Assembly (NCBI GenBank): GCA_903881505.1 | Contig: CAIRTM010000085.1 | Span: 1-51,670 of the forward strand | Direction of reading: 5' to 3' | Length of the DNA: 51,670 bases | Source of the DNA: an uncultured delta proteobacterium | GTDB lineage: Bacteria > Desulfobacterota > WTBG01 > CAIYCZ01 > CAIRTM01 | In this document: positions 1,212-16,433 of the stretch, one piece after another | Position numbering within the stretch: position 1 is the stretch's first letter | Layout of the letters: the number at the start of each line of letters is the position of its first letter | Notes under the pieces: generated by a model | What the model was told of the DNA's origin: nothing | Databases searched by the model: none | The model's input: only the letters and a program-made list of their open reading frames with translations | Made by a program: the position numbers and the translations under genes

Positions 1212-4200
1212 TCAGCTGCCGTGCCGCAGGCTGTAGTCCCTGAGGCAGGCGGCGGTGGATGAGCGCGCACAATCCCGCTCCGCGATTTTCTGCGGCGGAC
1301 CGCAGGCGACCACCCGGCCGCCGTCATCGCCGCCGCCCGGCCCCAAGTCGATAATATAATCCGCCTGCCGCATAATCTCAAGGTTATGTTCGATAATAAT
1401 GACCGTATTGCCCAGATCGACCAGGTGCTGGATCAGGCGCATCAGCTTGAGCACATCGGCCGGGTGCAGCCCGGTTGAGGGCTCATCGAGCACATACAGG
1501 GTTTTGCCCTGCGTCGGCTTGCAGAGTTCGGCGGCTATTTTTATGCGCTGGGCTTCGCCGCCGGAAAGCGTGGGGCTGGGCTGGCCCAGACCGAGATAGC
1601 CCAGGCCCATTTCGCGCAGGAACGCGAGCGGCTTTTCGATCGCCGGCACGTCGCTGAAGAACGCATGCGCCTCGTCGATGGTCATGCCCAGCACCTGGGC
1701 GATGTTTTTGTCCCGGTAGGATATCTGGCAGGTCTCTTCATTGAACCGCATGCCGCGGCAGCGGTCGCACTCAACGTACATGTCGGGCATGAAGCTCATT
1801 GCTATTTTTATTTCGCCCTGCCCGGCGCAGGCCTCGCAGCGGCCGGCGCTCAGGTTGAAGGAAAAGCGGCCCGGCGAATAGCCGCGCACGCGCGCATCGG
1901 GCAGCTGCGCGAACAGCGCGCGCACGGCATCGTAGAAGCCCATGTAGGTCGCGGGGATGGAGCGCGGGGTTTTGCCGATGGGGCTCTGGTCGATTTCAAC
2001 GGCCTTCTTAAGGCTTGCGGGCACGTCCAGGCCGGCATGGAGCCCTGCCGGCCCGTGATAGCGGCCGAAGCGCTTCTGCAGGCCCTTGTAAAGCGTCTCG
2101 CGCACGAGGGTGGTTTTGCCCGAGCCGGAAACGCCGGTCACGACGCTCAGGCGCCCCAGCGGAAATCCGGCCGTGATTTTCTTGAGATTGCGGGCCCGCG
2201 CGCCGCGCACCTGCACAAAATCGCATCCGTCGAGCGGGCGCGGTCCCGCGGCATGCGCCGCGGGCACGCGCCCGGCAAGGTGCGCGCCGGTCAGCGAGGC
2301 GCTGTCGGCCATGATGTCCCGCAGGCTTCCGCTGGCGATAACCCTGCCGCCGCTGCGCCCGCCGCCGGGGCCGAGGTCGATGATGTGGTCGGCCGCCCGG
2401 ATGGTGTCCTCGTCGTGCTCGACAACGATGACGCTGTTTCCCCGCTCCTGCAGCTCGCGGACGATCGCCAGCATGCGCCGGGTGTCATGCGGGTGCAGGC
2501 CGATGGTGGGCTCGTCCAGCACGTACAGGGCGCCGCGCAGGTTTGAGGCGACCTGGGCGGTCAGGCGCATGCGCTGGGCTTCGCCGCCCGAGAGCGTATC
2601 GGCTCCGCGGTCAAGCGTCAGGTACGAGAGCCCGGCCTTGTGCAGCAGCTCGAGCTTGGGCAGCAGTTCCTGCAGGACCGGGGTGGCGATCTGCAGGCTG
2701 CGGCCGGTGTATGCCAGGCCCCGGAGAAAATCCAGCAGCTGCGGGGCGGTCATGGCGGTCAGCTCGTGAATCGACGCTCCCCTGATGCGCACCGCCCGGG
2801 CCTCGGCATTGATGCGCGCGCCGCCGCAGGCGGGGCAGGGGGCCTCAACGCGGAACTGCGCGAGGTATTCCTGCCAGCCCGTTTTCTTCAGCAGCGCGGG
2901 CGAACCGAACAGCGCCGCCAGGCCGGGGAATTTCCTGCTGCCGTTCAGCAGCGCCCGCTGCGCGGATGCGCCCAGCCTGTTGAAGGGCCTGTCCACGGAT
3001 ATGCCGGCCTGCTCGATGCGCTGCAGCAGCTTTGCGCGCAGCGCGGGGCCCGGCAGGCCCGACTCCAGCGGAGCCAGGGCGCCGGCGGCGATGCTGCGGC
3101 CGCGGTCGGCGATCATTGCAGCGGGATCGAGGCTGCCGATGGTGCCGTAGCCGTCGCATTCCGGGCAGGCCCCGGAGCGGCTGTTGAATGAAAACAGGCG
3201 CGGGTCGGGCTGCGCCACGCTCAGGCGGCACGCGGGGCAGAACGACCGCGTGCTGAAAAAGCGCTCCTGCAGGTCGGGCGTGATAATGAGCATTTCGCCG
3301 CGGCCGATGGCAAGGGCGCGCTCAACCTCCATGATCAGGCGCTGCGCCCCGGCAGCCTCCGGCACCAGGGCGCCGGTGACCAGTTCGATTTTATGCTCGT
3401 GATAGCGCTTGACGGCGAAAATATTGCGCAGCAGCACCAGCTGTCCGTCAATGCGGATTTCGTCGAACCCGTCCTGGCGGGCTTTCTGGATGATGTCGTG
3501 ATGAAAGCCCTTGCGGCCGCGCACGAGCGGCGCCAGGATCTTGATCGGCGTCGCCGCGTAGTCGCGCCCGAGGCAGCCGGCTATCTGCTCCGGGGAGCTG
3601 GAGGACAGCCCGGTGCCGCAGCCCGGGCAGTGCAGCTCGCCGAGCCGGGCGAACAGCAGGCGCAGGTAATGGTAGACCTCCGTTGCGGTCGCAACCGTCG
3701 ATTTGCGGCCGCCGCGCGAGAGCAGCTGGTCGATGGCGATTGCGGGCGGCAGGCCGCGCACGGAATCCACATCAGGCCGCTTGAGCTGGGTCACATACTG
3801 GCGCGCATACGGCGAGAGCGTTTCCAGAAAGCGGCGCTGGCCCTCGGCGAACAGGATGTCGAAAGCAAGCGTTGATTTGCCCGATCCGCTCAGGCCGGTG
3901 ATGACGACAAGGCGGTCGCGCGGAATCTCAAGCGATATGCCGCGCAGGTTGTGCTCGCGCGCGCCCTCGACGACAATGGCGCCCGCGTGCGCGGCCGGCG
4001 CCGCAGCCGCGGGCTGCCGGGCGGCCGGGAGCCTGCGGCTGCCGGCCTTTTTAAGAAACCGGCCGGTGTGCGAGGCCGGGCAGTCCATGATCTGTTCGGG
4101 CGTGCCCGCGGCCACGACGCGCCCGCCGCCGCGCCCGCCTTCAGGCCCGAGATCGATAATATGATCGGCGCGCTGAATCAGGTCGGGGTTATGCTCGACC

Positions 4201-6782
4201 ACGATGATGGAATGGCCCCGGCCGATCAGGTAATCAAAGGTTTTGAGCAGGTTGGCGATGTCATCGGTATGCAGCCCGGTGGTCGGCTCGTCGAAGAGGA
4301 ACAGGGTTTTTTCGGACGAACCCTGCCGGATGAACGCGGCCAGCTTCAGGCGCTGGGACTCGCCCCCGGAAAGGGTGGTGGCCGGCTGCCCGAGCCGCAG
4401 ATAGCCCAGGCCGACCATCTCCAGCAGGCGCAGCGGGTATTCGATTTTGGGCGTATCGGAAAAAAACGCGCGGGCCTGCGCCACCGTGAGCTGCAAAACC
4501 TCGTGTATGTTTTTGCCCTGCCAGACGACATCGAGAACATGCGGAGCGTAGCGGGTGCCGCCGCAGGCCGGGCAGGTGACATAGGTGTCGGCCAAAAACT
4601 GCATTTCGATTTTCTCGAACCCCTCGCCCTGGCAGGCTTCGCATCTGCCGCCCCGGGCGTTGAACGAGAATGCCGAGGCCGTGTAATCGCGTTCAACGGA
4701 CAGCGGCGCGCCGGCGAACAGGGCGCGGATAGAGTCGAATATTTTAATGTAGGTCGCGGGATTGGAGCGCGGGGTCCGGCCGATCGGGGCCTGGTCCATG
4801 CAGATGACGCCGTGCGGAGCGCCGGCGCCCTCGAACCGGCAGCAGCGCTGCCGTTCGCCCGGCGCGGTCAGGTCCTGATGGATGACGTCTTCAAGCAGGG
4901 TTGATTTGCCCGAGCCGGAAACGCCGGTGATGCAGACGAACAGGCCCAGCGGAACGTCGATGCTCACGTCCTGCAGGTTGTTGCGGCCGGCGCCCTGGAT
5001 GCGCAGCAGCGCGCCGGCAACGGGGGCGCGCCGCCGGTTCGAGGGCGCAATGGCGCGCCTGCCGGCGGCGTAGTCGCCGGTCAGGGAGTCAGGCGCGTTC
5101 ACGATGCCCGCGGGAGGGCCCGCGTACAGGACGCGGCCGCCGCTTTCACCCGAGCGCGGCCCCAGGTCGATCACCCGGTCGGCGCGGGCAATGATGTCGG
5201 GGTCATGCTCGACGATCACCACGGTGTTGCCCAGGTCGCGCAGGGACTGCAGCACGTCCAGCAGCAGGTGCGTGTCCCGGGGATGCAATCCGATGCTGGG
5301 CTCATCCAGAACGTAGAGCGTATTGACCAGCGATGAACCCAGCGCGCAGGTCAGGCTCGCGCGCGCGACCTCGCCTCCGGAGAGCGTGCGCGACTGGCGG
5401 TCAAGCGTCAGGTACCCCAGGCCTACCTTGTTGAGATAGCCCAGCCGCCCCCGTATTTCCCTGAGCAAAAGCGCCACGGTCTCGTCGGCCCCGTCAGCGT
5501 CCGCGCAGTCCTCGAAGAAGGAGGCGGCCTCGGCGATGCTCATGCGGTGAATGTCGGCAATCGTGCGGCCGGCCAGGCGGTAGAGCAGGGTTTCGGGCGT
5601 GAAGCGCGATCCGCCGCAGGCGGGGCAGGGCGCATAGGACCGGTACTTGGACAGCATCACGCGGATGTGCATTTTATAGCTCTTGGTCTCGAGCCAGTCG
5701 AAAAAGCCCTGCACGCCGTAGAAATCGCCGTTGCCCTCGATGACGGCGCGTTTGTGACGGCTGCTCAGATCGCGGAACGGAACCGTGACCGGTATATTTT
5801 TCCTGCGGCAAAAGGCCATCAGGTCGGCGTACGCCTCGCGGTAGGCCGGGGTCGACCACGGCTTGACGGCGTCATCCTGCAGCGAGCGTCCCTGGTCGGG
5901 TATGGCCGCGCCGACGTCAAGGATGATGGTCCTTCCGAAACCGTTGCACTTTTGGCATGCGCCCAGCGGGTTGTTGAATGAGAAAAGCGCGGCGGTCGCC
6001 GGGCGGTAGCGAGTGTCGCAGTGCGGGCAGTGCCGGGCGCTCGAAAACTTCTGCTCCCCGCCGGCGCTGTCGGGAAGATGCACGCTGCACAGGCCCTTGC
6101 CGAACTTCAGGGCCGATTCAAGCGAATCCACCAGGCGCGAGCGCTGCTCCTGCGAGATGCGCAGCCGGTCGGCGATCAGGTCGAACGCGGCGTGCCGGGC
6201 GATGAAGTCCGCCGAGAGCTCGACGGTTTCCCCGGCGTGCAGCACCCGGTAGAATGCCTGGCCCTTGAGCCCGCGCTCGATTTCCTCCGGGCTGATGGCG
6301 GCTTCGGGGGCGACCGCGAAGGGAAATGTCACGATGCAGCGCTCGGCCTCATGGTCGCGCAGCAGGCGCGCGGCGATGGAGGCGGCCGAGTCCTGCTCCA
6401 CCGTGCGGCCGCAGGCTTCGCAGTGCAGCAGTGCCATGCGGGGGAACAGCAGCTTCAGGTAGTCGTTGATTTCGGTGAGCGTGCCGAGCGTCGAGCGCGA
6501 CGTTTTGATGGGGTTGCTCTGCGTGACGGCTATGGCGGGCAGGATGCCGTCGATGCCCTCGACGGCCGGCTTGTCCATCCGGTCCATGAACTGCCGGGCA
6601 TAGGTGGAAAAACTCTCGATGTAGCGGCGCTGGCCCTCGGCGTAGAGCGTGTCGAAAGCAAGGCTTGACTTGCCCGATCCGCTCAGGCCGGTGATGACCG
6701 TTATCGTATTGAGCTCAATGTCGATATCGAGGTTTTTGAGATTGTTCTGGCAGGCACCCCTGATGCGTATCGTTGCGCTCAT
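1212..6782 (-). CDS. uvrA: Tandem-fused double UvrA (excinuclease ABC subunit A)
   Basis: This encodes the damage-recognition ATPase of nucleotide excision repair, but as about 1,856 residues, twice the usual 940. Two complete UvrA units follow each other: residues 1 to about 930, then an Ala/Pro-rich linker, then about 945 to the end. Four Walker A motifs are visible: [12 protein letters not shown] near residue 32, then [22 protein letters not shown] and [10 protein letters not shown]. There are four LSGGE signatures, and each half has its own CxxC zinc modules. The first signature is degenerate ([11 protein letters not shown]); the others read ESQRLKL, EAQRMRL and EAQRIKI. The frame stays open upstream to 7079, but homology starts at the ATG at 6782 ([19 protein letters not shown]) and the extra 99 codons look like intergenic sequence. 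No strong ribosome-binding site is visible. Chlamydial UvrA is known to be a similar double protein. Confidence 0.95.
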
Positions 6783-7030
6783 GCGGTCCGCGGCTGCGCA
6801 CGGCAGCCAGTCAAGCAGGTTTATGCGCTTGTGCGCCGGCGATGCCCGTCCGGTCTGCGCCGCGGGCTGCAGCGGGATCCGGGACAGGGGCGGCCATACA
6901 AGGCTCGAATCAGCGTTCAGATAATCGGAAAAGTATACGATTGAAACCGGGGGCGTGCAAGTATTTTCTTGGAAAGGGTGTCCTGCAGTTTGTCGTCCAC
7001 CGCGTCCACATTGTCCACGTCGTCCAGCCC

Positions 7031-7063
7031 ATTCAAAACAAACGCCCCGCGGAACGCGGGGCG
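7031..7063 (-). terminator. Intrinsic terminator downstream of ssb
   Basis: A perfect 9-bp stem (CGCCCCGCG/CGCGGGGCG, 7043-7051 with 7055-7063) has a 3-base loop. Read on the minus strand, it is followed by the T-rich stretch TTTGTTTTGAAT. It sits 35 bases after the ssb stop codon, so it should end the ssb transcript and insulate uvrA. The rest of the 315-base gap between uvrA and ssb shows nothing else I can name. Confidence 0.8.
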
Positions 7064-7097
7064 CCTGTGGTACGGGCATTATGGGATCTGGCGTCAG

Positions 7098-7753: not shown

Positions 7754-8512
7754 CTACTGCTTAATCTCCCTGCCCTGTTCGTCGAATTGCTTTTCGCTGA
7801 GCAGCGATCCCTGCGAGTACTGGAACTCCCGCTGCACGGAACCGCCGGGATAATAGACGCGCGCCGGGCCTTCGAGCAGATCGTTTTTGTAGGTGCGCTC
7901 GGCCTTGAGCTTGCCGTTCTCATAGTATTCGCGGCAGGGGCCTTCAAGGACGCCGTTTTTGAAAACAAGCTCGTGCTTGGCTTTGCCGTTTTCGTAATAT
8001 TCGGTAACCGGCCCGTCAACGCGCCCGTCGCGGAACGTGCGCACCACCAGCAGCGCCCCTGTTGCGCTGTATTCATGCGTCAGGCCGTGCAGCCGGTCGT
8101 CCTTGAGCCGGGCATCGATGCGCAGGGTGCCGTTTTCATCCCAGGCCTTGCTCTCGCCGTTCTGCCGGCCGGCAGCATAGCGAACGGATTCCATGAGCTG
8201 GCCGTTTTCGTGCCAGGTCTTACCCTCCCCCTCCAGAAGGCCGTTTTTGTAATTGAGTTCGGCTTTCAGCTTGCCGCTTTCGTAATACACACGCGAAGGG
8301 CCCTGCAGGACGCCGTTGACATAGTTTTCTTCGAGCTGCAGGTTGCCGTTTTTAAAATACCAGCGGGTCGGGCCGTGCTGCACGCCGTTCTTGAGGGTCT
8401 TTTCCGATTTGGGCACTCCGCTGGCATAATAGTCCGTTGTGATTTCAGCCTGTACCGGGGAAGCTGCCAGCAGCAGGGCCGCAAAGATACCGCACAGCAA
8501 TCGCACTCGCAT
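7754..8512 (-). CDS. Exported MORN-type (YwqK-like) repeat protein
   Basis: A 252-residue protein with a clear signal peptide (MRVRLLCGIFAALLLAASPVQA). It is followed by about ten tandem repeats of roughly 21-23 residues of the pattern G-x-W/Y-Y-x-NGKL-x-x-E-x-x-Y-K-N-G-x-L-x-G. Examples are YYENGKLKAERTYKNDLLEG and YYESGKLKAELNYKNGLLEG. This is the MORN-variant repeat (MORN_2) family, often annotated as YwqK-type antitoxin; no toxin partner is adjacent, so I would not assign that role. An in-frame start exists 60 bases upstream, but the ATG at 8512 has AAGGA five bases before it and begins the signal peptide. Likely periplasmic or surface-exposed; molecular function unknown. Confidence 0.85.
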   Translation of the reverse strand: MRVRLLCGIFAALLLAASPVQAEITTDYYASGVPKSEKTLKNGVQHGPTRWYFKNGNLQLEENYVNGVLQGPSRVYYESGKLKAELNYKNGLLEGEGKTWHENGQLMESVRYAAGRQNGESKAWDENGTLRIDARLKDDRLHGLTHEYSATGALLVVRTFRDGRVDGPVTEYYENGKAKHELVFKNGVLEGPCREYYENGKLKAERTYKNDLLEGPARVYYPGGSVQREFQYSQGSLLSEKQFDEQGREIKQ

Positions 8513-8885
8513 ACAGGTCCTTGAAGCGTGATGGTGAGAACATGCAGTTCCGGACAACCATACTGCAAACACGGGCGTTTGTCCACTTTTTCAGGATTTC
8601 ATGCCCGGGAGCCTGTCCGCCCGCGGCGGACTGTCCCGTCTCAGGCGAACCGCGATCATGTGACCGGCGGGGGAACGCGGGACGCGAAGACCCTGCCTGG
8701 CAGGCAGGGGTTGGAGAGGTCTCTGCAGGCGTCCAGGAACGGCATATATCATTGCGATTACCCGGCACATGCAGAATCGCCGATAATCAATTTGACAAAT
8801 GTATTGGCTTTTGCAATAAGCATGCTCAGTCAATTCCGGCACATGCAGACGTCTATATATTTATATGGTCGGTGAAAGGAATACA
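8513..8885. other. Non-coding gap with a 14-bp direct repeat
   Basis: No convincing gene lies in these 373 bases; the short open frames overlap one another and resemble nothing I know. The sequence CCGGCACATGCAGA occurs twice as an exact direct repeat, at 8762-8775 and 8836-8849, flanking the promoter at 8792-8820. GC content drops sharply towards the right, where the cassette-like patch begins. Confidence 0.5.
8792..8820 (+). promoter_or_regulatory. Promoter-like site ahead of the cassette-like genes
   Basis: A perfect TTGACA (8792-8797) is followed after 17 bases by AATAAG (8815-8820), with further AT-rich sequence (TATATATTTATAT) near 8855-8867. It would transcribe the plus-strand gene at 8886 and possibly those behind it. 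It lies between the two copies of the 14-bp direct repeat. Confidence 0.45.
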
Positions 8886-9704
8886 ATGAAAGCAGAAACT
8901 AAGATGCGGGATTTTTCGTTGCGCTTGATCAGCATTCTGGTCTGGTTCGAGATCCTGTGGGCGACAGTGTTCCTGATCGGCATGGTTTTTCAATGGTCTG
9001 GACTCACCGACCAATTGGCGGCGGCCTTCTTCGGGAGCGGCTTTTGCGCAGTGCTTGTTCTGGCAGCTCTCGCATTGCTGAATGTGACTGCCAACCTCAA
9101 CATCATCTCGAAAGCACAGGCATCCAAAGCAACGGGCGAACCCTTGGTCGAGACCAAGACGGGAACTCTCATCAGGACCATTGCGATCGCAGGCGTATTG
9201 ATCGGAATTGTCGTTCTGTCCCTGTGGTTTGCAGAATGGCGCTTGTACAAGGCGAAAGAGGCAGAAACAACCGCGAAGATTGAGTCTATCGCCGAAACCA
9301 GGCTCGCGCAGGAGACAATTCGGCTCATCCGCGACAATGCCAAGATCACTGAACTTGCAAAAGCGCGTGACGCACTTTCCGCAAACATACAATCTGGAGC
9401 ACGACTGTCCATCATCTACCCCGAGAAGGTAAATGACGTTGAAATGTACCATGAGTTTACGGCTTGGTGGTACGGGTCGCAAGATAGCGACAGATCCATT
9501 TCAGACGCTGGACTTCCAAAGTTCGTCCCCTCCGCAGAAGAACGAAAACAGTTCGGGCAGCTCACTGCCGGAGAAATCACGGAATTCACAGTTCCTTGCG
9601 GAGGCAACCTGCGAGCTTTCAGGACGGTACAGACGTCTGACGGAAAGATGATCCTCCTGTTAGACACATCAAGGCGATCAGAATACTCACGGGGAAGCTT
9701 CTGA
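8886..9704 (+). CDS. Uncharacterised three-segment membrane protein
   Basis: A 272-residue protein that I do not recognise. Three hydrophobic segments are visible near residues 13-35, 44-70 and 93-115. They are followed by a charged, probably coiled-coil stretch (about 120-165) and a soluble C-terminal domain of about 100 residues containing a Trp-Trp-Tyr cluster and the string TVPCGGNLRAFRTVQTSDGK. The ATG at 8886 is chosen over an in-frame ATG at 8865 because AAAGGA stands five bases before it. Base composition is visibly lower in GC than in neighbouring housekeeping genes, suggesting transfer. The stop is followed six bases later by an attC-like palindrome (9711-9780), so this may be the first gene of a cassette array. 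Membrane location is inferred; no function is claimed. Confidence 0.75.
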   Translation: MKAETKMRDFSLRLISILVWFEILWATVFLIGMVFQWSGLTDQLAAAFFGSGFCAVLVLAALALLNVTANLNIISKAQASKATGEPLVETKTGTLIRTIAIAGVLIGIVVLSLWFAEWRLYKAKEAETTAKIESIAETRLAQETIRLIRDNAKITELAKARDALSANIQSGARLSIIYPEKVNDVEMYHEFTAWWYGSQDSDRSISDAGLPKFVPSAEERKQFGQLTAGEITEFTVPCGGNLRAFRTVQTSDGKMILLLDTSRRSEYSRGSF

Positions 9705-9710
9705 AATAAC

Positions 9711-9780
9711 ACCGAACAATGTGGTTGCGGGGTACGCGAGCCCGCAGCGGGTCTCGCGTACCCCGCAACCAGCGTTCAGC
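9711..9780 (+). repeat. attC-like recombination site (best copy)
   Basis: A 70-base element between two genes. A perfect 18-bp inverted repeat (GGTTGCGGGGTACGCGAG, 9723-9740, with its complement at 9753-9770) encloses a 12-base loop. Outside it, ACCGAAC (9711-9717) and GTTCAGC (9774-9780) resemble the R'' (RYYYAAC) and R' (GTTRRRY) core sites of integron attC elements and pair through GAAC/GTTC. It begins 6 bases after one stop codon and ends 9 bases before the next start codon, as cassette attC sites do. A plain transcription terminator is less likely because no T-run follows. Confidence 0.5.
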
Positions 9781-9789
9781 AGCAAAATT

Positions 9790-10566
9790 ATGACACACGA
9801 ATTTGACGGAAAAAAATACGAAAAGGCATCGGCCCATCAGAAAGAATGGGGCGAAAGGCTTATTGCTGAAGTCGGTTTGCGTGGAACAGAGTCAGTGCTG
9901 GATCTTGGCTGTGGCGATGGTGCACTTACCGCGCAGATTGCCGATCTGGTTCAGGAAGGTGTCGTGCTGGGTATCGACGCCTCACAAGGAATGATTGATG
10001 CGGCACTGTCGAAAGAACGCAAGAATCTCACTTTTTGCAAAATGGACATTAACGAGCTCAGTTTTCGCGAGCGCTTTGACCTGGTGTTTTCTAATGCCAC
10101 GCTTCACTGGGTAAAAGATCATAACCAGCTGCTGAAGAACGTCCGGCTTTCGCTTCGCCCGGGCGGACGCCTGCGCTTTAACTTTGCCGGGGACGGAAAC
10201 TGCTCACGATTTTTTTCTGTTATCCGGGAAGCAATGGCGCGGGATGAATATCAAAGCTTTTTTAGCGGGTTCGCGTGGCCCTGGTACATGCCCACCGTTG
10301 ATGAATATCGGGCTTTGGCTGAGTCAACCGAGCTCCAACATGTACACGTTTGGGGGGAAAACGCCGACAGGTTTTTCCCTGATGAGCAATCTATTATCCG
10401 CTGGATTGATCAACCCAGCCTTGTGCCTTTTCTTGTCTCCGTTCCTGAGCCTGTGAAGAATGCATTTCGAAATTTCGTTGTAACCAGAATGCTTGAAGAG
10501 ACGAAACAGAATGACGGGACATGCTTTGAGACCTTCCGTCGCATTAATATATCAGCAGCAAAATGA
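9790..10566 (+). CDS. Class I SAM-dependent methyltransferase
   Basis: A 258-residue Rossmann-fold methyltransferase. Motif I (SVLDLGCGDGALTAQIA, about residues 36-52) binds S-adenosylmethionine, with the acidic GIDAS at the end of the second strand and FDLVFSNATLHWV as the motif IV region. RPGGRLRFNF is the post-motif loop. The overall pattern resembles trans-aconitate methyltransferase and related Methyltransf_11/25 proteins; the acceptor substrate cannot be read from the sequence. The ATG at 9790 is used because upstream in-frame codons fall inside the attC-like palindrome. No good Shine-Dalgarno site is present, which is common for cassette genes. GC content is lower than in the flanking chromosome. 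An attC-like remnant starts 5 bases after the stop. Confidence 0.88.
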   Translation: MTHEFDGKKYEKASAHQKEWGERLIAEVGLRGTESVLDLGCGDGALTAQIADLVQEGVVLGIDASQGMIDAALSKERKNLTFCKMDINELSFRERFDLVFSNATLHWVKDHNQLLKNVRLSLRPGGRLRFNFAGDGNCSRFFSVIREAMARDEYQSFFSGFAWPWYMPTVDEYRALAESTELQHVHVWGENADRFFPDEQSIIRWIDQPSLVPFLVSVPEPVKNAFRNFVVTRMLEETKQNDGTCFETFRRINISAAK

Positions 10567-10570
10567 AAAT

Positions 10571-10637
10571 GCCGAACCATCGGCTTGAGAGTGACGCGGC
10601 AAAAACTCGCGCCGCTCCCCTGATCCGAAACGCCAGC
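10571..10637 (+). repeat. Decayed attC-like site
   Basis: GCCGAAC (10571-10577) resembles the R'' core and is followed by an imperfect palindrome centred on GCGGC (10596-10600) and GCCGC (10611-10615). It ends near CGCCAGC (10631-10637), where an intact site would carry GTTRRRY. It occupies exactly the space between one stop codon and the next start, as at 9711-9780. On its own it would be weak evidence. Confidence 0.3.
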
Positions 10638-10647
10638 GGTATACAAG

Positions 10648-11274
10648 ATGAAAAAAACAATCATCAGCTTGGGTCTGCTCGCCGTGGGAGGCTGGATACT
10701 TGTTTCCGGCATCAGCAGCCTCATGATGGATTGCAGGGCACGGTCCTGGCCGATTGCTGAAGGAGCCTTGCAATCCAGCAGATGCGTCCGCTATTACGAT
10801 ATGGAAAGCGGGATTTTGGGCTGGTCGTATTTTACGCATGTCAATTACAGCTATGCGGTGGCGGGAAGAAGCTACAACGGGGACCGTATCGCCTTCGGTT
10901 ACTCGGGGAGCTGGTGGCGCAGGCCCAATCAAAAAATAGCCGACAGGCTGTCTTCTGCGAGAACAGTGCTTGTACGGTATGATCCGGATAAACCGTCGAC
11001 TGCAGTCCTCGCCTATGGCGTGAACGGTTCACATGTCAGGACGGTATTCATCGGGAGCTGGATCGTTCTGATGACGGCGGCTGGTTTGGCCTCTGTTTTC
11101 CGTTCCCGGAACAATGCCGGCTTGATAGCGGCGTCCTGGCATTTCAACCGTTTCAATCTGGTTATACACGGAATTGCAGGGATGGTTCTGCTTGTCGCGG
11201 CAGGCCTGGTCATATTCTGGCTTCTGGGTTTGATGATTGACTGTGGTATTCTAAGCACACTAGAGCTGGGATGA
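10648..11274 (+). CDS. DUF3592-family membrane protein
   Basis: A 208-residue protein with one N-terminal membrane segment (about residues 4-25), a soluble domain, and two C-terminal membrane segments (about 130-150 and 175-200). The soluble part contains the pattern I recognise from DUF3592 proteins: W-P-x-x-E-G-x-x followed by Y-x-V-x-G-x-x-Y-x-G-D-R-I-x-F and a late V-R-Y-D-P-D-x-P. These are bacterial membrane proteins of unknown role. The ATG at 10648 comes 11 bases after the attC-like element and has no obvious ribosome-binding site. It belongs to the low-GC patch. Confidence 0.75.
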   Translation: MKKTIISLGLLAVGGWILVSGISSLMMDCRARSWPIAEGALQSSRCVRYYDMESGILGWSYFTHVNYSYAVAGRSYNGDRIAFGYSGSWWRRPNQKIADRLSSARTVLVRYDPDKPSTAVLAYGVNGSHVRTVFIGSWIVLMTAAGLASVFRSRNNAGLIAASWHFNRFNLVIHGIAGMVLLVAAGLVIFWLLGLMIDCGILSTLELG

Positions 11275-11603
11275 ACCCGGGCCGGCGAAACGGAAAGCCG
11301 GCCGGCCAGGCCATGGGGCCGGCATTGCCTGCAGCCCGCTGCCGGGCATGCGGCAGCACCCGTTCGTTCGCCATCGTGAGCGGTTCATCGGACATCTCTC
11401 TCGATGTCCCTGCAAATCTAACATTTACAGATAAAGAATTGTATCCCATGGCCCGAGAATATGTAAGAAAGAGTGAGAAATGCGCATCCCTGTTTAAGGG
11501 ATATCCTGGTATGATTACGTACATGACGCTCCTGATCCGGGCCTGGCAGCATGATATAAAGACGGGAGCGCTCACGACGGCCCATCGTATCATGCTGCTG
11601 TAA
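11271..11603 (+). CDS. Doubtful short ORF at the end of the cassette-like patch
   Basis: An open frame of 110 codons that overlaps the previous stop by four bases (ATGA). I recognise no family. The first 40 codons are GC-rich and contain an inverted repeat (GGCCGGC, 11280-11286, with GCCGGCC, 11297-11303), so they may be non-coding. The last 51 codons (from an ATG at 11448, reading MAREYVRKSEKCASLFKG) look more protein-like. The stop codon TAA lies inside the CTGTAAC that starts a possible attC site, a pattern often seen for cassette genes. That is the main reason for listing it. Confidence 0.25.
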   Translation: MNPGRRNGKPAGQAMGPALPAARCRACGSTRSFAIVSGSSDISLDVPANLTFTDKELYPMAREYVRKSEKCASLFKGYPGMITYMTLLIRAWQHDIKTGALTTAHRIMLL

Positions 11604-11663
11604 CAATGACGCATGAAGGTTCGTTATCGGATATTACTACGAGAAGTGAGTGGCACGTTAGGC
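11598..11663 (+). repeat. Possible attC site with a perfect GTTAGGC core
   Basis: GTTAGGC (11657-11663) matches the attC R' consensus GTTRRRY exactly. TAAC of CTGTAAC (11598-11604) pairs with its GTTA, and the 66-base length fits. The interior palindrome is weak, so the assignment rests on the core site and on its position at the end of the low-GC patch. The bases from here to 11783 hold nothing I can identify. Confidence 0.3.
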
Positions 11664-11783
11664 AAACGTATTAACATGAGTCCCCATACCAACGGGCTGC
11701 GCTGGACGCGGTTCCGCTGCGCTCCATCTCACGGGGGACGTTGACTGTTTTCACAACCCGACAGGCGTATTGGAGGCTTCAAT

Positions 11784-12128
11784 ATGAAACTGCTGCTCGT
11801 GTTCGTCATGATTATGTTTATTTCCGTGCAGGCGATGGCAAACGACGTGTGCGACTGTGAGGGCGACACCAGGAGGGGTGGCCCCTGTTATGCTGGCGTC
11901 GGCGGGCCCGCCTACGCAGGTGTCGGCGGGCCGGCGTATGCCGGCGTCGGCGGCCCGTGCTACAAAGGCGTGGGCGGGCCGAAATACGCCGGTGTCGGCG
12001 GCCCCGAGTACAAAGGCGTGGGCGGCCCGAAATACGCCGGTGTCGGCGGGCCCTGCTATGCGGGCGTTGGCGGCCCGTGTTACGACGGGGCCGGTGCCGG
12101 CGACACGTGTCCGGACATTTGCAGGTAA
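11784..12128 (+). CDS. Secreted GGPxYxGV octapeptide-repeat protein
   Basis: A 114-residue protein with a signal peptide (residues 1-19, ending QAMA) and a short Cys-containing lead-in (DVCDCEGDTR). Nine consecutive eight-residue repeats of the form G-G-P-x-Y-x-G-V follow (residues 32-103), then a tail GDTCPDICR. The x positions hold Cys, Ala, Lys or Glu before Tyr and Ala, Lys or Asp after it. There are eight Cys in the mature part. A strong ribosome-binding site (GGAGG, 11772-11776) lies seven bases before the ATG. The repeat region is low-complexity and has no recognised fold. A structural surface or envelope protein, or a substrate for tyrosine- or cysteine-based cross-linking, are possibilities only. 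It is not a housekeeping gene I know. Confidence 0.8.
   Translation: MKLLLVFVMIMFISVQAMANDVCDCEGDTRRGGPCYAGVGGPAYAGVGGPAYAGVGGPCYKGVGGPKYAGVGGPEYKGVGGPKYAGVGGPCYAGVGGPCYDGAGAGDTCPDICR
11877..12092 (+). repeat. Nine in-frame 24-bp tandem repeats
   Basis: These encode the G-G-P-x-Y-x-G-V octapeptides. Units differ mainly at the codons before and after Tyr, while GGCGTCGGCGG-type sequence is nearly constant. The period is an exact multiple of three, so copy number can change without a frameshift. Confidence 0.85.
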
Positions 12129-12275
12129 CACCTGCAGGCGGCACACCGCAGGGTATCAGGGCCGGGTCATGCAGATATGGCCTGACGATCCATTATGAAT
12201 GTTTGCGTGCTTGCCGTTTGTACGCCTTACAAGACGCATTGGGGAAGCGAAGATATAATTTTCAGGAGCGGTGCG

Positions 12276-15603: not shown

Positions 15604-16209
15604 GTGAAAGTCGCACGCAGAATGGTACGCGATGTCATCACTATTCCCCCCTCGGCAACCGTCAATGATGCCCTGCGCCTGCTGCATGAAAGCAACATCC
15701 GCCACCTTCCGGTCGTAGACGGAGAAACGTTTGCCGGTTTTATCGCTGAGACCGATTTGCGGCAGGTGCTGCTGCTGCCCGGCGGCAACGATATCCGTAT
15801 CAGGGATGTCATGAATACGGATCCGGTCACGATCGGGCCCGAAGAAAACCTTGAGGAAGCGGCCCGGCGTATCTATGAGTATAAAATCGGCGGCCTGCCC
15901 GTCCTGGAAGACGGGAAGCTGGTGGGGATTGTCACGGTCGGCGATATTTTGGCTGCGTTTATAGAAATCATGGGCGTGCTGCAGGCCAGTTCGCGTATCG
16001 ATCTCGTGCTGGGCGAGGACGCGGAGGCCTTCGAAAGCGTGTCGCGCATCATCAAGAAAAAAGGCGGCGATATCATCAGCGTGGGCATGGGCGACGCGCC
16101 GGCGCCCGATAAGAAATATTACTTTTTCCGCCTCAAAAAATGCGATGTCGATCCGATCGCCGAATCGCTGCGCAAGGGCGGCTATGAGGTGATGTCGGTC
16201 ATCCACTAG
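15604..16209 (+). CDS. Tandem CBS-domain protein, AcuB-like
   Basis: A 201-residue cytoplasmic protein with two CBS domains and a C-terminal ACT-like region (about 135-201). The first CBS domain spans about residues 4-60 (VRDVITIPPSATVNDALRLL, IRHLPVVDGETFAGFIAETDL) and the second about 68-120 (VMNTDPVTIGPEENLEEAA, IGGLPVLEDGKLVGIVTVGDI). CBS pairs sense adenine nucleotides; AcuB-type proteins have this layout, but the effector and target cannot be read here. The start is a GTG at 15604 preceded by AAGGAGA with a five-base spacer. It has its own promoter, and a long inverted repeat begins two bases after the stop. Confidence 0.87.
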   Translation: MKVARRMVRDVITIPPSATVNDALRLLHESNIRHLPVVDGETFAGFIAETDLRQVLLLPGGNDIRIRDVMNTDPVTIGPEENLEEAARRIYEYKIGGLPVLEDGKLVGIVTVGDILAAFIEIMGVLQASSRIDLVLGEDAEAFESVSRIIKKKGGDIISVGMGDAPAPDKKYYFFRLKKCDVDPIAESLRKGGYEVMSVIH

Positions 16210-16210
16210 T

Positions 16211-16335
16211 GCCGCACTCGTAAAAAGTCCGTACGCTGCGTTGCGCTGCGTTCTCAGTCACTGCGGCGTACACAAACGTACGCCTCATTCCTTCGGACGT
16301 GCGCGCCCTGCCTGCGAACTTTTTACGAGCGCGGC
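16211..16335. repeat. Long imperfect inverted repeat (REP/MITE-like)
   Basis: The outer arms GCCGCACTCGTAAAAAGT (16211-16228) and ACTTTTTACGAGCGCGGC (16318-16335) are complementary except for one position. The interior holds a second nested palindrome of GTACGC/GCGTAC units (16231-16236, 16266-16271, 16278-16283). No coding sequence is visible. From memory it resembles interspersed elements of sulfate-reducing bacteria, but I cannot verify that here. Confidence 0.7.
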
Positions 16336-16433
16336 TTGAAAGGGGCATCGTTGAATTTTTTAGGACTTTTTAAAATCGTGCTACACTCGTAGAAGTCCGG
16401 AAGCAGAAACGCTATAACAGAGAGGCCTGAAAC

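Follow-up and report, generated by a model that had tools for sequence, protein, structure and literature searches.

Short Gly-rich repeats form GPGG or GVGGP turns in flagelliform silk, with its GPGGX units, and in elastin-like repeats, and the prion octarepeat is likewise made of eight-residue Gly-rich repeats. The octapeptide-repeat gene treated here, which we call REP, lies in a 51,670-nucleotide stretch of DNA from an uncultured delta proteobacterium, termed the window in the following. Compared with flagelliform silk and elastin-like repeats, its product is far shorter, Cys-rich and position-specific in each repeat, and compared with the prion octarepeat its units contain no His or Trp but Cys and Tyr instead. 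Gly-rich polyproline-II bundles are described in a review (PMC8409303) as folds overlooked by common secondary-structure programs, with the snow flea antifreeze protein, the Obg domain and the spike tip of T-even-type phages as examples. REP resembles these bundles (PMC8409303) in its Gly-richness, in its predicted short extended segments and in the possibility of disulfide stabilisation. It differs in having octads with an invariant Tyr and matches no PDB sequence and, in Foldseek, no structure, so that the likeness is a lead. An ice-binding role was set aside; judging by contig titles, the family has been recorded in lakes, sediments and seawater. Short Pro/Cys repeats also bring Cornifin/SPRR (PF02389) to mind, but the match of the window protein is weak (E 5e-4; 20.7 bits, cut-off 34.8), and this protein is bacterial and has a signal peptide and CxC/CPxxC caps.

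The gene and its parts occupy the following positions of the window:

11772..11776, + strand: ribosome-binding-site-like GGAGG, 7 nt 5' of the ATG
11784..12128, + strand: octapeptide-repeat gene (REP), 114 aa, from open reading frame and translation
11784..11840, + strand: signal peptide, recognised in the sequence by its hydrophobic stretch
11844..11876, + strand: N-terminal CxC cap DVCDCEGDTRR, from sequence and family comparison
11877..12092, + strand: nine GGPxYxGV octads with Cys in units 1, 4, 8 and 9, from TRF, translation and unit comparison
12093..12128, + strand: C-terminal CPxxC cap GAGDTCPDICR and stop, from sequence and family comparison

The precursor consists of the signal peptide MKLLLVFVMIMFISVQAMA, followed by NDVCDCEGDTRR, the nine octads and the tail GAGDTCPDICR; by the motif rule, cleavage presumably occurs after AMA. 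Along the nine octads, the residue-4 series is C A A C K E K C C. The sequence-only reading of this DNA had described a small secreted protein with nine octapeptide repeats, and the 114-aa frame indeed encodes a signal peptide and nine units, the ninth of which ends in Ala instead of Val. The octads account for 72 of the 114 residues, i.e. the two thirds that had been claimed, and the Tyr is invariant in all nine units while residue 4 beside it varies (Cys, Ala, Lys or Glu). The count of eight Cys in the mature chain was also correct, and the Cys noted at both ends belong to the CxC cap at the N-terminus and the CPxxC cap at the C-terminus. A simple scan found no sigma-70-like promoter for REP.

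TRF detected the array at periods of 24, 48 and 72 bp with a score of up to 192, the top of 12 rows in the window. The exact 24-bp period reported earlier holds for the spacing but not for the units themselves, which share a mean DNA identity of only 70% (best pair 96%). Synonymous sites of the units differ (pS 0.57), and pN is 0.00 at the G, G, P, Y and G positions. Since units of 70% identity have changed only synonymously at the invariant residues, the window array is an old one kept by selection rather than a fresh product of slippage. Units 4-5 and 6-7, which are identical at 43 of 48 positions as counted from the aligned units, look like descendants of one older 48-bp duplication. Between family members, dN/dS or pN/pS amounts to 0.05-0.19 in eight pairs. 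Absent homologues or drifting frames, the findings that the sequence-only reading had named as speaking against it, are not what we see; homologues are many and under purifying selection. That the reading frame is open by chance in GC-rich repeat DNA is conceivable because further frames of the REP DNA are open as well. It is nevertheless extremely improbable given a conserved family, its pN/pS values, its signal peptides and the ribosome-binding-site-like GGAGG, and the synonymous pattern together with the position-specific octad residues led us to rule it out.

Relatives were collected by a DNA-pattern scan for GGPxYxGxGGPxYxG over a species-level genome collection. Among the 80 matches listed, sorting by eye assigned at least 65 rows from many phyla to the family. 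Record titles name Gamma-, Beta- and Alphaproteobacteria, SAR11, Geobacter, Nitrospina, Holophagae, Acidobacteria, Omnitrophota, a Clostridiaceae MAG and others as sources, and the three pattern rows from viral contigs are all family members. Cultured isolates with REP include Lysobacter psychrotolerans ZS60 (L077) and Aliamphritea spongicola (L045). Inspection by eye excluded fourteen rows (L007, L014, L015, L016, L025, L028, L042, L052, L055, L056, L060, L062, L071 and L072) as unrelated Gly-rich proteins, and L011 was dropped because it is fragmentary; L034 and L064 represent a single contig. Complete members have an architecture of CxC, octads, GGPCYxG twice and CPxxC in common, and both caps are present in 47 sequences. 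The window protein carries every family feature, namely export signal, CxC cap, octads, two terminal GGxCY units and CPxxC cap, and it matches the profile of its own family at E 6e-30, being the first row of that alignment. Alignment A1 comprises 45 members, i.e. the 47 two-cap sequences minus L026 and L068, with the window copy used for L001. For these 45, searches of NCBIfam, PHROGs and PDB sequences returned no named family (0 each), and Pfam gave only low compositional matches; Cornifin, DUF4774 and DUF3432 (9, 13 and 7 of 45 members, respectively, E <= 0.01) were rejected as such. In the literature searched, no paper with the octad motif strings or combined terms named the protein. With the window protein as query, tblastn found no match among plasmids and phages, a weak negative in which the low-complexity filter may have masked the query.

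A hydrophobic signal-like stretch directly precedes the domain in 43 of the 47 two-cap members, and the other four are fusions. The earlier suggestion that the protein could be structural stands, as do export and the Tyr and Cys content. In L036 and L041, we read the REP domain as fused behind a Sel1/TPR-like region, and some members look lipoprotein-like to us. A Sel1-type gene overlaps the start of the REP reading frame in L038 (1079-2010). The family is rare and scattered over bacteria. Within the sampled phylum of the window, REP occurs in one of 98 genomes, the window's own, and in none of eight other genomes of the taxonomic family; in the class to which G107 belongs, three of 369 genomes, G107 included, have it. 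Of 394 genomes from G113's phylum, one gave a match at E <= 1e-8, which is a Cys-less GPGGGLYT protein (L158) and not a member, and this threshold missed G113's own two-octad copy. Genomes with REP mostly contain one copy. Judged from the sequences, this is a real family of small, predicted exported repeat proteins, under selection and without a name in the libraries searched.

The array is ordered and not drifting. In alignment A3, restricted to the 21 of the 45 members whose 11 octads can be aligned with no long gaps, residue 4 follows the series C-A-A-C-x-x-x-A-A-C-C in every protein, with Cys at octads 1, 4, 10 and 11 and Ala at octads 2, 3, 8 and 9 (21/21 in each case). Identity of residue 4 at the same octad across proteins is 0.79 versus at most 0.38 in 300 within-protein shuffles. 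Four 11-octad members stand outside A3. Two of them, L010 and L033, conform to the series, whereas octad 2 carries Met in L006 and Glu in L019, the latter also having no octad-4 Cys. The window protein (CAACKEKCC) agrees with the family in having Cys at octads 1, 4 and the last two and Ala at octads 2 and 3, and is without the A-A pair that precedes the last two Cys at octads 8-9 of the 11-octad members. For residue 8, identity is 0.92 within a protein and 0.43 across proteins, with Pro, Val, Tyr or other residues used throughout one protein. Had whole repeats been homogenised, the residue-4 pattern would be gone, and we therefore infer that residue 8 serves a packing that must match along the stack. 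A change in copy number, which the exact period had been said to permit, is borne out by a range of 2 to 13 or 14 octads across the family, but 11 is the commonest number and each octad keeps its own identity, so that free change is not the rule.

Exactly eight mature Cys are found in 38 of the 47 members and an even number in 45, the odd counts being those of L023 (7) and L074 (9). Co-variation of Cys was tabulated for 54 sequences with at least five octads. When two N-terminal Cys are present, 40 of 42 sequences have the octad-4 Cys and the remaining two an octad-3 Cys; when there is one, the octad-4 Cys occurs in none of ten, and two further sequences have no N-terminal Cys. The scripted 2x2 count yielded P 6e-8, though with L019 and L039 scored as having an internal Cys through other Cys, and seven of the ten single-N-terminal-Cys rows are Burkholderiales-like, so that about four independent losses have to be counted rather than ten. 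Octads 4 and 7 both carry Cys in L006, L010, L033 and L081, and all four of these have one extra Cys after CPxxC, which is found in 0 of the 38 other members with two N-terminal Cys (tails read by eye). In L039 the last-octad Cys and the first CPxxC Cys are both missing. Because Cys counts are even and Cys are lost and gained in matched pairs, disulfide bonds are likely in the family, four of them in the window protein. L030, L068 and L023, with two to four octads, retain CxC without the octad-4 Cys, and at least one pairing must therefore differ there. The CAACAACAACC arrangement of L010 and L033, with Cys at every third octad, gave rise to the idea of a 24-residue structural period; this spacing is not kept in L040, L048 and L074.

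An AlphaFold2 model of the L073 domain (11 octads, 21-row alignment) reached a pLDDT of 88.8 and a pTM of 0.63, values to be read with care as AlphaFold2 can be overconfident on regular repeats. By DSSP letters, the model has almost no helix or strand, only two helices of three residues each. The nine-octad domain of the window, modelled from the gappy 45-row alignment, came out poorly (pLDDT 66, pTM 0.38). Neither Foldseek against PDB and BFVD nor VIA against PDB returned a match (0 each). Similarity to a solved Gly-rich bundle was likewise not detected by Foldseek against PDB (0) or a profile search of PDB sequences (0), two methods that are weak for such folds. Going by the one confident model of a relative, the family protein is probably folded. 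An elastomer- or silk-like polymer, with GPGG/GVGGP beta-turns as springs and chains cross-linked via Tyr or Cys, would agree with the Gly/Pro/Tyr octads, the GPGG motif, the uniformity of residue 8 within each protein and the lipoprotein-like appearance of some members. We judge it improbable, as the mature chain has only about 80-110 residues, each octad has its strict identity, Cys counts are even, the relative is confidently modelled as compact, and no oxidase or peroxidase recurs among the 25 commonest Pfam families of the neighbouring genes. The sequence-only reading had offered cross-linking as one role; it gains no support from Cys that co-vary in disulfide-like pairs, nor from the same 25 families, in which no modifying gene recurs.

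Those families stem from a tally of 232 neighbour proteins at 59 loci, which left out L001, L011, L012, L020, L024, L031, L047, L063 and L083 as well as loci in which the script detected no complete open reading frame for the repeat. Nothing in the 25 commonest Pfam families suggests a recurring partner enzyme near REP. This bears on metal binding, also proposed earlier, by which REP would be an exported thiol protein for copper or zinc, a periplasmic metallothionein-like buffer. The CxC and CPxxC ends, eight Cys and a Tyr beside Cys would suit such a function, and a DUF2282 (bufferin-type) gene adjoins REP on the same strand in L029 (3495-4391) and L045 (1-863), from related Oceanospirillaceae; being close relatives, the two count as one event. 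As Cys disappear or arise in pairs whose partners stand far from each other in the chain, as disulfides would, as the invariant residue of octads 2, 3, 8 and 9 is Ala and not Cys or His, and as no metal gene is among the 25 families, the proposal remains unsupported and appears unlikely. REP is also short, repeated and Cys- and Tyr-bearing in the manner of a RiPP precursor or another substrate of peptide-modifying enzymes, and in L061 (4927-8000) and the related L057 it is followed by a GNAT/C39-like gene and then a RimK-like ATP-grasp gene. In L061, the GNAT/C39-peptidase-like gene lies 7 bp past REP if the predicted start is right. This ATP-grasp pair is confined to L061/L057, no modifying enzyme recurs across the 59 loci (25 commonest Pfam families), a classical Sec signal and Sel1/TPR fusions would be unusual for a precursor, and strong selection extends along the entire array, all of which makes this origin very improbable. 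We assign the same low probability to a secreted antimicrobial or antagonistic peptide spread like morons and cassettes: the product is small, exported, probably disulfide-rich, mobile and usually encoded once per genome, but no immunity gene recurs in the tallies (25 commonest Pfam families) and there is no similarity to known families in Pfam, NCBIfam, PHROGs or PDB sequences. In two unrelated bacteria, REP is found near a pair of genes for a MerR-like regulator and a VIT-domain protein (L048, 1272-6202; L051, 2007-5138).

What the neighbourhoods do reveal, and what the earlier reading did not contain, is that the sparse REP genes are sometimes cargo of mobile DNA. As in integron cassettes, REP is located between attC sites in L018 and L073, and in L021 it is the first cassette at the integrase end with attC after it. 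The REP contigs of L021 and L073 encode IntI (484 and 511 bits, cut-off 265) at most 0.8 kb from REP. Of 50 genomes or records with REP, 10 have an IntI above the cut-off, and it adjoins REP in these two; most members reside outside integrons. On the phage contig L138, REP sits beside M15-peptidase, protease-MORN and, in our reading, holin-like genes, and we recognise a TniQ-like gene near REP in L144. The 232 neighbours include six Phage_integrase proteins (tyrosine recombinases), four Sel1, two Resolvase and two rve proteins (raw counts).

In the window, REP is part of a segment with these features:

8483..12270, strand not assigned: lineage-specific segment of 3.8 kb, no DNA match listed in G001 of the same genus
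9721..10566, + strand: methyltransferase gene upstream of the attC-like site, Pfam Methyltransf_25, first 23 codons doubtful
10571..10638, + strand: attC-like integron recombination site, right core mutated (no GTT), model R2 E 1e-11
10648..11274, + strand: DUF3592 membrane protein after the attC-like site, from Pfam
11271..11603, + strand: 110-aa orphan open reading frame directly before REP, no Pfam or NCBIfam match

The flanks of the segment match two different contigs of G001, the only other genome of the genus, with ssb and MORN on the left and the amidohydrolase (83% identical protein) onward on the right. G+C content is 49-56% in the segment genes other than REP, 67% in REP and 63-66% in the housekeeping genes of the flanks (uvrA, ssb, amidohydrolase, helicase). 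Among 20 named genomes, Geobacter has the closest relative of a DEAD-box helicase encoded in the window (60%), a hint of a deltaproteobacterial host. Between window positions 6001 and 19000, a strict scan for attC found none, and because it found sites in few REP loci a covariance model was needed. RNAalifold gave no base pair in alignment A7, which makes the resulting R2 a sequence-only model. R2, built without the window site, recovers this site from 735 kb with an E of 1e-11; its only other rows at E <= 0.05 are one weak row in L043 and six sites from L018, L021 and L073, of which five had served to build the model. Unlike the cassettes of L018, L021 and L073, the window gene has as its sole attC-like site the one with the mutated core 1.1 kb upstream, and none flanks REP, the 3' side included, at E up to 10, so that we do not call REP a cassette here. 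The window's own genome (97% completeness) has no IntI over the cut-off. The segment around REP in the window thus contains a decayed cassette site as well. Model R1 finds ten attC-like sites in this genome, five of them in a row on contig C91 (13079-15142, L155) with small open reading frames in between and two more on C136 (27915-28412); with no IntI over the cut-off in the genome, these on C91 and C136 are orphan cassettes.

Three further observations concern the surroundings. A near-perfect 50-bp inverted repeat (94%) at 9722-9771 lies between two genes of the lineage-specific segment; an Rfam mir-6790 match at 9720-9772 was rejected as far below its cut-off. Between the CBS and QueF genes, 16207-16368 is a dispersed repeat of about 100-160 bp with many copies of 71-88% identity in several genomes of the taxonomic family. 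The UvrA-like reading frame at 1212-7079 (1955 aa) is about twice the usual length and, by eye, a head-to-tail double protein.

Our preferred reading, to which we give a little less than an even chance, is that REP is a mobile accessory gene for a Sec-exported, four-disulfide protein in which the octads form a compact stack. The small product would be exported by Sec, and outside the inner membrane its eight Cys would be oxidised to four disulfides that staple the two caps (CxC and CPxxC), octads 1 and 4 and the final pair of octads to one another. The octads may then build a compact Gly-rich stack of short extended segments with GG turns as joints, probably with three octads (24 residues) to a structural period, rather than an unfolded repeat. 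Such a protein might serve as a tough scaffold or a binding module in the extracytoplasmic space and, where it is fused, as the exported C-terminal portion of Sel1/TPR proteins and others; we saw no enzyme site in REP, and a scaffold or binding role outside the inner membrane is our guess. We further consider it possible, if doubtful, that the family represents an unsolved fold, a disulfide-stapled Gly-rich solenoid in which three octads (24 residues) make one turn and helix and strand are almost absent, and that integrons, phages and transposons have carried it into distant phyla as a finished module for export. Among the genes of integron cassettes and the accessory genes of prophages, most have, to our knowledge, no known function, and the REP family is a clean and easily recognised set of such genes that comes with a structural hypothesis open to quick tests, its products being small and exported, with ordered octads and defined Cys pairs. 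If the fold is real, it would extend repeat proteins by a new class and offer a simple design scaffold; if it is not, the family still supplies a signature for genes unnamed in the libraries searched.
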